DNA from: Thermoplasmatales archaeon BRNA1
Lineage (GTDB): Archaea; Thermoplasmatota; Thermoplasmata; Methanomassiliicoccales; Methanomethylophilaceae
NCBI GenBank assembly: GCA_000350305.1
Contig: CP002916.1
Location: 806,001-870,000, forward strand
DNA length: 64,000 bases
Reading direction: 5' to 3'
Positions within the stretch are counted from its first letter, which is position 1. Every line of letters begins with the position of its first letter. Below the pieces are notes generated by a model. It was not told where the DNA came from. It did no database searches and was given only the letters and a program-made list of their open reading frames with translations. Of the stretch, positions 5,299-48,202 are shown in pieces. The position numbers and the translations under genes were made by a program.

Positions 5299-6843
5299 TC
5301 AGATTATCGCGACTACGATGATTAGGACGAACGCGAACAGGAAAAGGGTGGAGACGTTCTTGGTGATCTCCGCTGCCTGCTTATCGCGCTTCTCGGCATC
5401 CTTGACCCCGATCCTCTCCAGGAGCCTGTCCACCCATCCCTGGAAGATGTACCCTCCGTCGAAGGGCACCGCGGGCAGGGCGTTGGTTATCCCGAGCAGA
5501 ATGTTCAGCCAGAACAGCCAGTAGAGGAGCTCGAGGAAGGACCAGAAGAATGCGTTGTAATCGCCGTACCACCACTGGATGCTGGAGGGCAGGGGGTCGA
5601 AGCCGCTGTAGGGCATCGTGAGATAGCCCATGAGGGCCTGGGGAAGGTCCGTGAGGGAATCCACGCCGTACAGGGGATTCCTTGCCTTGTCGAGGACCTG
5701 CGAGGGCGTCAGGAGGTTCAGCCCGGAGGTGGAGGTGTAGACGCCGAGATACCCGTATCCCTTGTTACCGTTCTCTTCGAGGACGGCCGTGGTGGTCTGA
5801 ACGGCGTTGTTGGCGTCCACATAGGTGATGGTGACGGTCTCGCCCTTGGAGGTGGTCTTCATATAGTCCGTAAACTGGGAGGAGGTGAACACCTCGGTGT
5901 CGTTCATCTTGACGATGGTGTCCCCCTTTGACAGGCCTGCCTTACCCGCCGGCGAATCGTCGGCCAGCTTCGATATGTACATCCCCCACGGTATCGCCGC
6001 GGAGGTCGTCGCAACACCGGATCCGTCCTGGACGTAGGTGATGGTGACCAGATAGAACGGGCCGCGGACGGCGGACATCTTGACGGGGTCGTCGAAGTCC
6101 TCGTAGAGGACGGCCTGCCCGTTCATGCTGAGGATGATCGCTCCCGAGGGGATCCCCGCGATGTCCGCCGGAGAGCCCTCGACCTCCCCGTAGATCGCCG
6201 CATTGTCCTCGTACTGGTTGGTCATGCCCCCGAGCATCACCACGGAGAACAGCAGGAACGCCACCCCGGCGATGATGAAGTTGGCGGATATACCCGCGGA
6301 GAAGAGATCGAGCTTGGCGGTCCTGGAGCACCTGTCTACATCCGTCTGGTCCGGCTCCACGAAGGCCCCCACGGGGACCACGCAGTACAGCCCTCCGGTG
6401 TTCTCGACCTTCATGCCGTTGGCCCTGGTCTGGACCCCGTGTGCGAACTCGTGGAGCACGACGGCTATGATCAGGGCGAGGAGGGTGTACCAGAATGGCA
6501 TGATGGGGTTCAGGCCGGGGAGGGCCAGAACGTACTCCACCCCGAGGGACGAATGCGACTGCAGGATCGAGGGGATGCGGATGACGGAGAACACGATCAT
6601 GAAGACCATGAACACCATCTCCACGAACGCGAAGACCTGGGACGCTATTCCGAAGAACCTCCAGAAGCGGCGGTACTTTCCGAGACGGTCCATCAGCTTC
6701 AGGCCGAGCTTGGTGTTGATCTTGATGAGCGGACCGTACTTCTGGAACCCGTACCTGATCGCGTTGGGGGACTTCCACGTCCAGATGTAGATCGGGATGT
6801 AGACGATCAGGAGGGCAAGGAGGATCATCACGGTGGTGCTCAT
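5299..6843 (-). CDS. M50 family site-2 protease with PDZ domains
   Basis: A 514-residue intramembrane zinc metalloprotease. The N-terminal membrane region carries HEFAH at residues 131-135 (zinc-binding HExxH), and the C-terminal membrane region has NALPAVPFDGG, the conserved aspartate motif of the family. Between them are two PDZ-like segments (around SPADIAGIPSGA and SPAGKAGLSKGD), which select substrates. Proteins of this type cleave membrane-bound regulators. MptE starts 5 nt away on the same strand, but no substrate or anti-sigma-like partner is next to it. Confidence 0.9.
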   Translation of the reverse strand: MSTTVMILLALLIVYIPIYIWTWKSPNAIRYGFQKYGPLIKINTKLGLKLMDRLGKYRRFWRFFGIASQVFAFVEMVFMVFMIVFSVIRIPSILQSHSSLGVEYVLALPGLNPIMPFWYTLLALIIAVVLHEFAHGVQTRANGMKVENTGGLYCVVPVGAFVEPDQTDVDRCSRTAKLDLFSAGISANFIIAGVAFLLFSVVMLGGMTNQYEDNAAIYGEVEGSPADIAGIPSGAIILSMNGQAVLYEDFDDPVKMSAVRGPFYLVTITYVQDGSGVATTSAAIPWGMYISKLADDSPAGKAGLSKGDTIVKMNDTEVFTSSQFTDYMKTTSKGETVTITYVDANNAVQTTTAVLEENGNKGYGYLGVYTSTSGLNLLTPSQVLDKARNPLYGVDSLTDLPQALMGYLTMPYSGFDPLPSSIQWWYGDYNAFFWSFLELLYWLFWLNILLGITNALPAVPFDGGYIFQGWVDRLLERIGVKDAEKRDKQAAEITKNVSTLFLFAFVLIIVVAII

Positions 6844-41601: not shown

Positions 41602-42555
41602 TCATTTTCTTACCAGGGGTACGAACTTCCCGTACCCCTTACCTTCCATCTCCTCCAGCGGGATGAACAGCAGCGAGGCGCTGTTCATGCAGTACCTCGC
41701 CCTAGTTGGGGAGAACCTGTCGCCGTAGAACAGGTGTCCCAGATGCGTGTTTCCCACCCTGCTCCTGACCTCGGTACGCGTTATAGGTAGCTTATGGTCC
41801 TCCAGATACACCACCGAGTTTGGATCCAGAGGCTTTGAGAATGCCGGCCATCCGCAGTGGCTGTCGTACTTGTCCTGCGAAAGGAAGAGGGGCTCCCCGG
41901 TGATCCTGTCCACGTAGATCCCCGGGGAGAACTCGTTGTCGTACTCGTTTTCGAAGGGCCTCTCGGTGTCCGCCTCCTGTGTGACAGAGTATTGCAACGG
42001 GGTCAGCCTAGACTCCAATTCTTCATTGCTGGGTCTTTTGTATTCCGAGGGGTCGAACACCCTCTCCGAGACCTGCCTGACAAGCTCGCTGTCGATATGG
42101 CAGTAGCCGTGGGGGTTCTTCTCGAGATACCTCTGATGGTATTCCTCCGCAGGGAAGAAGTTCTCCAGAGGGGCCAGGACGACGTTGAAGGGGTCGTATC
42201 TCCCGGCCTCGGTACCGGCGATCCTCCTGACTGTCTTCTCCGATTCCCCATCGTTCCAGAAGATGCAGGCCTGATACTGGGGACCGGCATCGTTCCCCTG
42301 CCTGTCCTTCAGCGTGGGGTCGATGGATGCGAAGAACGCGTAGAGGATGAAATCCAGGCTCACCCTGGACTCGTCGTATGTAACGTGGACGGTCTCCCGG
42401 TACCCGGTGCGCCTCCTGCAAACATCCTCGTATGTGGGTACGACGGAAGGGTCCCCGTTGGCGTATCCGACCTCAGTGGAGACCACCCCGTCTATTGCGG
42501 ATATGAGGCGCTCCGTACCCCAGAAACACCCTCCGGCCAGCCATATCTCCCTCAT
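41602..42555 (-). CDS. msrAB: Methionine sulfoxide reductase MsrA-MsrB fusion
   Basis: A 317-residue fusion. MsrA begins MREIWLAGGCFWGTERLISA (catalytic Cys in GGCFWG); MsrB follows with CGWPAFSKPLDPNSV, and the C-terminal RARYCMNSASLLF holds its catalytic Cys. It repairs both diastereomers of Met sulfoxide. The start ATG at 42555 sits 9 nt downstream of the stop of the gene at 42564, so they may be cotranscribed. Confidence 0.93.
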   Translation of the reverse strand: MREIWLAGGCFWGTERLISAIDGVVSTEVGYANGDPSVVPTYEDVCRRRTGYRETVHVTYDESRVSLDFILYAFFASIDPTLKDRQGNDAGPQYQACIFWNDGESEKTVRRIAGTEAGRYDPFNVVLAPLENFFPAEEYHQRYLEKNPHGYCHIDSELVRQVSERVFDPSEYKRPSNEELESRLTPLQYSVTQEADTERPFENEYDNEFSPGIYVDRITGEPLFLSQDKYDSHCGWPAFSKPLDPNSVVYLEDHKLPITRTEVRSRVGNTHLGHLFYGDRFSPTRARYCMNSASLLFIPLEEMEGKGYGKFVPLVRK

Positions 42556-42563
42556 GGTATCCC

Positions 42564-42926
42564 TCAATGCATCCTGAACGCGGAGGAGACCTGGTGGCAG
42601 AGCTCCTGGGTGCAGATCACGACCACGTCGTCGGGAAGGGATGCGATGTATTCCTCCTTCCCCGAATAGAACCGCGGGCCGTACACGAGGATGATCCTCC
42701 TCCCGGACGAGGACATGACGGCCTCCTCCACCGAGGGGAAACATCCCTCCCCCACCTTCAGCTGCCTGTAGTCCGGGAAGGCCTCCGCCAGCATCCCCGA
42801 CAGGGTATCGAGGACCTCCTCCTTCGGGACCCTCCTCTCCCCTAGGAGCATCTTCCCTCTCCCGCCGGGGGACATGAGCTCCTCCGCGGAGGCGGCGGGG
42901 CATCCTCTCAGACAGCCGTCGGTCAT
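42564..42926 (-). CDS. Hypothetical protein, 120 aa
   Basis: Starts MTDGCLRGCPAASAEELMSP with a CxxxC near the N-terminus and two later cysteines (GEGCFPS and CTQELCHQ). The middle has a Rossmann-like strand pattern (GRRIILVYGPRFYSGKEEYI). It is not a family I recognise. It precedes msrAB by 9 nt, so it may act in redox repair. Confidence 0.65.
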   Translation of the reverse strand: MTDGCLRGCPAASAEELMSPGGRGKMLLGERRVPKEEVLDTLSGMLAEAFPDYRQLKVGEGCFPSVEEAVMSSSGRRIILVYGPRFYSGKEEYIASLPDDVVVICTQELCHQVSSAFRMH

Positions 42927-46956: not shown

Positions 46957-47544
46957 ATGTATGTCTACATTTTGGGCGGCTTCCTCGGAAGCGGGAAGAC
47001 CAGCCTCCTGATGAGACTCGCCAGCATGTTCAGCGAAAAGAAACAGAAGGTAGCCATCCTCGTCAACGAGTCCGGAGAGATCGGTGTCGACGGGGCCACC
47101 CTCAAGGCCCAGGGATACGACGCCGTGGAGCTCCCCTCCGGATGCGTCTGCTGCACCCTCGCGGGCACCCTCCAGACCGCCCTCGTGAACATCGTCAACG
47201 ACATCGACCCCGACGTGGTCATCATCGAGCCTACCGGACTCGCGCTCCCCCACAAGGTGAAGGATCTCGTTTCCTCCGCGGACGTGGACGAGGACAGGGA
47301 CATCATCATCGGCATCGCCGATATCCAGAGGTTCAACGACCTCATCAAGAAGAAGGAAGAGTTCTTCACCAGGCAGATGCAGGGCTCCGACTTCATCCTG
47401 ATCAACAAGTGCGACCTCGCCAAGGACGGCGAGATCGAGGAAGCCACCAAGTGGCTGAACGAGCGCTTCCCGGACAAGGAGATAATCCCCGTGTCCGTGA
47501 AGGAAGGTACCAACCTCGACAAGGTATACGGGATGATGGAATGA
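46957..47544 (+). CDS. CobW/HypB-like GTPase, metallochaperone type
   Basis: A 195-residue GTPase with P-loop GFLGSGKTSLL, the metal-binding CVCC (GCVCCTLAGTLQTA), IIEPTGLALP and NKCD. It lacks the separate C-terminal CobW domain. The next gene, overlapping as ATGA, is a His-rich protein. The pair is likely a split metallochaperone for Ni, Co or Zn; corrinoid and nickel enzymes are abundant in these methanogens. Confidence 0.88.
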   Translation: MYVYILGGFLGSGKTSLLMRLASMFSEKKQKVAILVNESGEIGVDGATLKAQGYDAVELPSGCVCCTLAGTLQTALVNIVNDIDPDVVIIEPTGLALPHKVKDLVSSADVDEDRDIIIGIADIQRFNDLIKKKEEFFTRQMQGSDFILINKCDLAKDGEIEEATKWLNERFPDKEIIPVSVKEGTNLDKVYGMME

Positions 47545-48170
47545 GCGAGGAACACGTACACTCTTCGATCGAGGAGGCCGGGGGCGCGGCCACCGGCTTC
47601 ACCGGCACCATCGAGAACTGGAACGCGGACGCCGAGGCGAGGTTCGCCGACACCCTCATGGAGGTCGGTAAGTTCGTCCAGGGGGAGTCCGGATGCCTTC
47701 TCGGACACATCAAGGCGGCCGTCTTCAAGGACGACGGCAACGGCCTCACCCTCAACCTGATCGACATGGACAACGGCGTCGAGCACCACGGCACCCTTGC
47801 CAGGAACGATCTCGTCAAGTTCAACTTCATGTGCGCTGTCCTCGATGTCGACGAGGACGAGCTCCAGCACTTCATGCTCCACGCCATCGACGACTCCGGC
47901 CTCGATTACCACATCGACATCGAGTCCCTGAGGCACCACCACGAGCACCATCACCATGACGAGGAGTGCACCTGCGGCCACCACCATCACCATGACGAGA
48001 GCTGTCCCTGCCATGGGCACGAGCATGAGCACCACCATCACCATGACGAGAGCGAGTGCACCTGCGGGCATCATGACCACCATGACGAGGACTGCCCGTG
48101 CCATGAGCATGAGCACGAGCATGAGCACCACCATGACGGCGGGTGCTGTCACCACCATCACGACGAGTGA
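47541..48170 (+). CDS. His-rich metal-binding protein, CobW partner
   Basis: A 209-residue protein. The first ~130 residues are a folded domain (GFTGTIENWNADAEARFADT, then HIKAAVFKDDGNGLTLNLID). The last ~75 residues are made of His, Glu, Asp and CxC-type units, with CTCGHH-like and CPCH-like units repeated. Start ATG overlaps the GTPase stop. It probably stores or delivers metal to the GTPase. The repeat region may vary in length. Confidence 0.85.
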   Translation: MSEEHVHSSIEEAGGAATGFTGTIENWNADAEARFADTLMEVGKFVQGESGCLLGHIKAAVFKDDGNGLTLNLIDMDNGVEHHGTLARNDLVKFNFMCAVLDVDEDELQHFMLHAIDDSGLDYHIDIESLRHHHEHHHHDEECTCGHHHHHDESCPCHGHEHEHHHHHDESECTCGHHDHHDEDCPCHEHEHEHEHHHDGGCCHHHHDE

Positions 48171-48177
48171 TGGAAAC

Positions 48178-48202
48178 GGGGGGTAAATCCCCCCTCCTTT
48201 TT
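48178..48202 (+). terminator. Terminator between His-rich and nuclease genes
   Basis: GGGGGG / CCCCCC stem with a TAAAT loop, then TCCTTTTT. It serves the convergent metallochaperone operon. Confidence 0.65.

Follow-up and report, generated by a model that had tools for sequence, protein, structure and literature searches.

A split CobW-type GTPase with a detached His-rich partner in Methanomassiliicoccales: a candidate two-subunit metallochaperone linked to methyl-transfer genes

A short COG0523/CobW-type GTPase and the overlapping gene behind it represent a genuine and conserved variation on a known metallochaperone family, in which the G domain and a second protein with a metal-binding-type tail are encoded as separate chains by two genes. 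The pair was identified in the window, that is, the whole stretch of 64,000 nucleotides analysed here (positions 806001-870000 of a source genome that consists of one contig, 1.46 Mb in length and 99.7% complete). Our reading, to which we give an even chance of being correct as regards metal, clients and complex, is that the two proteins act together as a two-subunit metallochaperone, probably one that serves zinc methyltransferases. In Methanomassiliicoccales, an order relevant to gut methane, the pair is a concrete candidate for the factor that supplies zinc to MtaB and MtaA, with which methanogenesis from methanol begins. As the GTPase (the metal switch) and the putative client domain are encoded apart, each could be purified on its own before mixing, which is impossible with a fused CobW protein.

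The association between COG0523 and methyltransferases is prior art, having been reported by Haas et al. 2009 (PMC2770081), a comparative study and the one paper that a literature search on a zinc chaperone or GTPase for methanogen mtaB turned up. In the sections of that study available to us, most archaeal COG0523 proteins fall in a subfamily co-localised with corrinoid methyltransferases; those of Methanosarcina and Methanococcus maripaludis cluster with mtaA, mtaB, mtaC and ramM, MA4382 was detected in methanol-grown cells, and M. acetivorans MA4381 and znuABC have a common predicted zinc-repressor site, placing them in a predicted zinc regulon. What we did not find described is the detached His-rich partner, a family whose window member goes unrecognised by Pfam-A and NCBIfam. 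The word 'split' does not occur in those sections of PMC2770081, nor is a split form mentioned there; titles and abstracts of the open-licence literature contained no description of a split COG0523/CobW protein with a detached His-rich partner; and the accessible text of two papers on Methanomassiliicoccales (PMC5688252 and PMC10804542) lacks the term 'cobW', as that of PMC10418091, on related gene clusters, lacks 'GTPase' and 'chaperone'.

Table 1. Features of the GTPase-partner locus (positions in the window)
Feature	Start	End	Strand	Description and basis
Short COG0523/CobW-type GTPase	46957	47544	+	195 aa, G domain only; open reading frame from ATG to stop, Pfam/NCBIfam, 18-row alignment
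GCVCC metal-binding-type motif of COG0523	47140	47154	+	Motif reading
Partner protein	47541	48170	+	209 aa; open reading frame from ATG to stop; start inside the GTPase stop (ATGA, 4-nt overlap)
Partner core domain	47562	47936	+	Predicted alpha/beta fold, mean pLDDT 92.4
GHIK motif characteristic of the partner family	47703	47714	+	GHxK in 80/80 partners
His/Cys/acid-rich tail	47934	48167	+	78 residues: 35 His, 10 Cys, 14 Glu, 8 Asp
Imperfect tandem repeat of 90 nt	47946	48146	+	2.3 copies, 80% matches; codes for most of the tail
Terminator-like stem-loop and T run directly behind the pair	48178	48202	+	Consensus match only

The window GTPase is confined to a G domain

The preliminary description held that the GTPase is short and lacks the usual C-terminal CobW domain, and domain searches bear this out. 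PF02492 is the sole Pfam family above its cut-off (136.5 bits against 20.7) and takes up residues 3-176 of 195, so that no room is left for a CobW_C domain (PF07683), which was likewise without a match in the entire window genome at E up to 0.001. The COG0523 motifs GFLGSGKT, GCVCC and NKCD are all intact. The protein thus carries the PF02492 domain and the GCxCC motif of COG0523 and has no CobW_C in the same chain, a domain that is present in most, not all, members of the group. Canonical CobW proteins such as YjiA and ZigA (PF02492 plus PF07683) resemble the pair in their G domain, in GCxCC and, weakly, in predicted C-terminal fold, but are made as one polypeptide where two chains occur here; the available part of a review (PMC9164220) describes COG0523 proteins as typically two-domain.

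Several other identities were considered and set aside. The best NCBIfam match was to NF041053, a CobW-related selenoprotein family of 195 positions, equal in length to the window GTPase; the score of 101.8 bits (residues 3-191 of 195) lies below the equivalog cut-off of 180, and the gene has no in-frame UGA. This family is treated as a UxxC selenoprotein in the accessible text of a review (PMC13188914). The HypB model TIGR00073 gave 43.7 bits against a cut-off of 121.2, whereby that identity was rejected as well, Pfam MeaB reached E 0.12 (11.8 bits, cut-off 23.1), and NCBIfam yielded no MeaB model at E up to 1. The closest named relative by GTPase similarity is a Candidatus Methanomethylophilus metagenome-assembled genome of the order Methanomassiliicoccales, with 84% GTPase identity.

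The partner follows the short GTPase across the order

A protein-similarity search returned 17 related loci, of which one (L009) stops at a contig end; in the 16 that extend far enough, the partner lies directly downstream every time, with a -4 overlap in 15 and a spacing of +2 in the other, and this recurrence excludes chance as the origin of the arrangement. A wider set, assembled from Thermoplasmatota genome searches and fetched stretches, comprised 96 distinct GTPases scoring at least 80 bits, including 90 short ones (<300 aa). Two of these, at contig ends, were not judged (L009, and L155 from another order). Among the 88 assessable short CobW genes, 80 are succeeded immediately by the partner gene (at -4 in 64 of these), and the proportion is 69/77 once the 11 rows from loci chosen via the partner are removed. 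The proposal of a split CobW protein, with a second, overlapping gene supplying a separate domain and a metal-binding-type tail, is upheld by the reading frames, their overlap and this pairing.

Sequence features of both families are just as constant. All 90 short GTPases contain GC[IV]CC, and all 80 partners contain GHxK (GHIK in 56, GHVK in 18, GHAK in 4, and GHTK and GHNK in 1 each). A profile seeded with window-type partners recognised 55 of the 64 downstream reading frames in an earlier, smaller set (weakest score, 60.6 bits). The window-type profile itself found members in 37 of 389 Thermoplasmatota genomes, all of them Methanomassiliicoccales, an order with about 56 members in that sample. 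Canonical CobW_C (PF07683), sought in a phylum sample of 389 genomes that we assume to be the same, occurs in a single genome of the order (G122) among these roughly 56.

The eight short GTPases without a partner are the first tandem copy in L100 and those of L105, L106, L107, L109, L110, L112 and L108; seven of the eight sit in Mta/RamA loci. As a separate observation, the L107 copy beside RamA (approximately 6039-6620; G159:C1:1190338-1190916) contains one in-frame TAG, which could reflect either pyrrolysine read-through or decay, and its close relative in L105 has a longer frame.

The partner has a predicted domain weakly resembling the CobW C-terminus and a variable metal-binding-type tail

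The whole window partner matched nothing in Pfam or NCBIfam at E up to 1. Residues 8-132 are predicted to form a compact domain (17-row alignment; pLDDT 92.4, pTM 0.86), the folded part being approximately 110 residues long. When the model of this core was compared with 350,542 PDB chains in Foldseek, the CobW protein YjiA occupied ranks 1, 2 and 4, with weak scores (E 4.2e-3, 8.2e-3 and 1.7e-2; probability 0.87-0.98). VIA-align superposed the model on residues 217-318 of YjiA 1nij, that is, its C-terminal part (Z 6.3, rmsd 4.9, 99 residues), and on 4ixm and 4ixn over a range that starts at 145 and is not limited to the C-terminal domain. The arrangement is a common one, since unrelated ferredoxin-like domains of alkyl-DHAP synthase score higher than YjiA against the partner model (VIA Z 8.2).

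Profile comparison (hhalign) of 78 partner domains with 6, and then 42, full-length CobW proteins, and also with the C-terminal parts of the 6, placed the partner on the C-terminal region of the full-length proteins each time. The alignment is in register, but its probability of 0.1-0.6% carries no statistical weight and is no sequence proof that the partner is homologous to CobW_C; Pfam itself gave no CobW_C (PF07683) match to the core. At least one xxKG or xxKA stretch lies in the C-terminal part of 42/42 full-length CobW proteins and could, as a suggestion only given how loose the pattern is, be the counterpart of GHxK. The most economical reading of the predicted fold, unproven as it is, would be that the partner domain is a detached CobW_C. 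Other resemblances were dismissed as chance: MtrA appeared by phmmer at E 0.48 only and was absent with the family profile, whose search listed only cadherins (E 0.12-0.32); and the Pfam matches of single partner cores concerned few rows and did not agree, PCI coming up for 2 of 17 (best 2e-4), POTRA_3 for 3 of 17 (best 0.018) and the NGO_1070-like model for the window's own core at E 0.12 (13.3 bits, cut-off 26).

The tail had been put at about 75 residues of His, Glu and CxC units, very near the length recorded in Table 1, and is built of CTCGHH- and CPCH-type units. Variation in its length, which had been suggested between strains, is seen in a comparison between species. Among the complete partners listed, the sequence outside the core domain (N- and C-terminal extensions tallied together, stretches between two cores excluded) contains from 0 to 62 His and from 0 to 34 Cys. 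Partners with more than 20 His all belong to the main GTPase clade and to Methanomethylophilaceae, main-clade partners of other families (L081, L082, L114-L118) have 2 to 10, and none at all is found in L083 of the main clade or in some members of other clades (L124, L128, L136). The tail is therefore better regarded as an add-on than as a conserved function. The main-clade partners of L008, L160, L161 and L162 were observed to carry two copies of the GHxK-family core domain.

Methyl-transfer genes surround the pair in relatives

Representative neighbours were named by Pfam and NCBIfam, and the remainder labelled by similarity to those seeds. They include MtaB (642.8 bits), RamA (TIGR04270, 735.1 bits, cut-off 500), MtaC-type corrinoid proteins, a UroD/MtaA-type methyltransferase, an SsuA/NMT1-type ABC transporter and a CbiA-type enzyme. 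Five layouts recur: MtaB-MtaC divergent from GTPase-partner-RamA; in other families, GTPase-partner-RamA facing MtaB-MtaC; corrinoid protein-UroD-GTPase-partner in one direction; RamA divergent from GTPase-partner-UroD-UroD; and one GTPase clade with none of these methyl-transfer genes. The layouts mostly follow clades of the GTPase tree, in which several branches are long (34 label changes, against 61.1 with shuffled labels).

Where both flanks reach at least 5 kb (65 loci), RamA is found no more than 6 kb away in 33 loci, MtaB in 25, and at least one of these two, MtaC, a corrinoid protein or UroD in 44. Chance would give roughly 1.7% for RamA and 1.1% for MtaB, as calculated from 68 RamA and 43 MtaB matches, fragments included, in approximately 52.8 Mb of 32 genomes; the loci share descent, and some come from outside those 32. 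By clade, a methyl-transfer gene lies within this distance in 29/38 main-clade and 15/27 other loci, leaving 9 main-clade loci, the window included, and 12 others with none.

Three further neighbours deserve mention. A solute-binding-protein seed of the SsuA/NMT1-type transporter (L087 8934-11783) occurs no more than 6 kb away for 27 of 89 short-GTPase rows, and one may speculate that the transporter could import coenzyme M or another sulfonate. A Cys-rich protein of approximately 103 residues (CPNCGFEF...CRGC) follows the partner in L141 (7146-7454) and in seven other corrinoid protein-UroD loci, the L141 copy having no Pfam match. Finally, in L009, L016, L019 and L087 the gene immediately upstream of the pair, in opposite orientation, is for a CbiA/CobB-type amidotransferase, identified as such for L087.

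The GTPase co-occurs with MtaB, and the window genome is an exception

Co-occurrence with corrinoid methyltransferases, which had been proposed as a check on the metallochaperone reading, was evident when the GTPase family and MtaB were looked for in 147 genomes of the order. Main-clade GTPase (best E of 1e-50 or lower) and MtaB were both present in 92 genomes and both absent from 33, with GTPase only in 17 and MtaB only in 5 (Fisher 2.9e-15, a guide only, as kinship of the genomes is ignored). The 74 genomes with completeness of 90% or more and contamination of 5% or less divide into 55 with both, 6 with GTPase only, 2 with MtaB only and 11 with neither; within genus g12, four genomes have both, six have neither and none is discordant. 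Among the 74, GTPase without MtaB was found in the window genome (G000), G338, G125, G119, G378 and G476, although a looser search recovered MtaB fragments in G119 (at a contig end) and G125; MtaB without main-clade GTPase was found in G317 (99% complete) and G315 (93%).

In the complete window genome MtaB has no match, and none of the five methyl-transfer gene types occurs within 6 kb of the pair. The one RamA is distant (987041-988645, about 133 kb away). The genome has four corrinoid-protein matches, four UroD/MtaA-type enzymes with H-x-C, and a methylamine set comprising an MttB-family gene and an MtmB whose frame contains a single TAG. Of two adjacent MttB-like genes (G000:C1:267255-270114; L170 9256-12115), the first (PF06253) has a single in-frame TAG and the second, recognised by eye, has none. 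The same-genus locus L100 reads MtaB, MtaC, GTPase, GTPase, partner, RamA, YqaJ, IorA-like, and the window reads GTPase, partner, YqaJ, short-chain dehydrogenase, tRNA-Leu, IorA-like. The suggested link to corrinoid-dependent methylotrophy accordingly stands in relatives, through gene order and co-occurrence, and fails as a direct one at the window locus, where it is indirect.

Both frames of the window pair are open and their motifs intact. Rough dN/dS values, obtained by a counting method with dS up to 1.7, are 0.09-0.39 for the GTPase against five relatives and 0.22-0.29 for the partner core against four, compared with 0.15-0.20 among those relatives themselves, and a slight relaxation of selection on the window partner core is possible. 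Since the window genome keeps an intact pair without MtaB, the pair is not tied to MtaB alone. A two-gene transcription unit would fit the terminator-like stem-loop at 48178. In the window, Rfam at gathering scores returned only two tRNAs, and a promoter scan with a sigma-70 model, which is uninformative for archaea, found nothing.

A two-subunit metallochaperone and its alternatives

In the mechanism that we propose, the GTPase subunit, with its G domain and GCxCC switch motif, would bind metal and switch with GTP; the partner would provide, as a separate chain, the client-facing domain found at the C-terminus of most COG0523 proteins; and the variable His/Cys tail would collect or buffer metal. 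The clients would most likely be zinc-dependent methyltransferases of corrinoid systems, namely MtaB for methanol and, elsewhere, MtaA/MtbA/UroD-type enzymes. In the species of the window, where MtaB is missing, the MtaA/MtbA-type enzymes that remain would be served, and the four H-x-C UroD/MtaA-type proteins are possible clients. In the methyltransferase layouts, one of the enzymes (MtaB or MtaA/UroD-type) belongs to a zinc-dependent family. One relative's MtaB aligns with 2i2x over its full length and keeps Glu164, Cys220 and Cys269, which we take to be the zinc ligands. H-x-C is present in 21 of 22 neighbourhood UroD-type proteins (L085_8 has HPH), and a Cys at a later position, by eye, in all 22; the idea that clade C UroD proteins lack the zinc motif was discarded, as the alignment shows H-N-C there. 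A more specific version, that the pair is an obligate two-subunit zinc insertase for corrinoid methyltransferases, with a G-domain-only COG0523 protein, a new GHxK family in place of CobW_C, several paralogous pairs per genome each serving one methyltransferase system and the tail as an evolvable metal store, we advance only tentatively.

Two known arrangements offer parallels. COG0523 subfamily 13, in the available sections of Haas et al. 2009, similarly places a COG0523-type GTPase beside corrinoid methyltransferase and corrinoid-activase genes in methylotrophic archaea (the window locus itself excepted), whereas here the GTPase is a G domain only with an overlapping partner gene; the likeness meant is one of gene context. 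UreG with UreE, and HypB with SlyD, as given in the same sections (PMC2770081), also combine a short G3E GTPase with a separate metallochaperone protein, but their clients are urease and hydrogenase, and the comparison is one of arrangement.

Several findings count against the proposed mechanism: the loci without a methyl-transfer gene within 6 kb, the window among them; the genomes with a main-clade GTPase but no MtaB, or the reverse; the eight short GTPases that lack a partner; and, for a detached CobW_C, the low hhalign probability and the higher VIA Z of unrelated domains. The choice of zinc as the probable metal rests on known COG0523 biology and the H-x-C motif, as gene order cannot separate zinc from corrinoid when MtaC and RamA lie as close to the pair as MtaB. 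In an alternative, corrinoid-side role, the pair would load, protect or reactivate MtaC-type cobamide together with RamA, by analogy with MeaB and methylmalonyl-CoA mutase: RamA is often close behind the partner on the same strand, clade C operons have a corrinoid protein directly upstream, and the CbiA-type gene adjoins the pair in the four loci named above. GCxCC and the His/Cys tail, however, are ion-binding features that to our knowledge MeaB does not have, and the GTPase scores far better with CobW-type than with MeaB models, so we regard this role as unlikely. A generalist that buffers and distributes zinc or other metal without serving any one client, and that shares only its location with methyl-transfer genes, would accommodate the retention of the pair without MtaB in the window genome, the clade whose neighbours look by eye like housekeeping genes, and the wide variation in tail size; co-occurrence with MtaB and the matched presence and absence in genus g12 speak against it, and we consider it rather improbable.

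The original suggestion of a two-protein metallochaperone for nickel, cobalt or zinc survives as to the split CobW form and is narrowed as to the metal. Nickel chaperones of this GTPase family typically have His-rich stretches, HypB and UreG being examples in the accessible text of PMC2770081, and a role in nickel supply to hydrogenase or methyl-CoM reductase (F430) could on this ground be envisaged; the window genome, however, encodes a HypB of its own (219.3 bits, cut-off 121.2), which makes nickel less likely and this explanation very unlikely. Least probable of all is that the window pair is a relic heading for loss after loss of mtaBC. The absence of MtaB, the remote RamA and the contrast with L100, where mtaB, mtaC and ramA surround the pair and the window has none of them, would suit such a history, as would the somewhat higher partner-core dN/dS in comparisons with the window; the open frames, intact motifs and dN/dS well below 1 argue otherwise.

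A minor observation concerns another gene of the window, which encodes a fused MsrA-MsrB methionine sulfoxide reductase (41605-42903); methanogens should be strict anaerobes.
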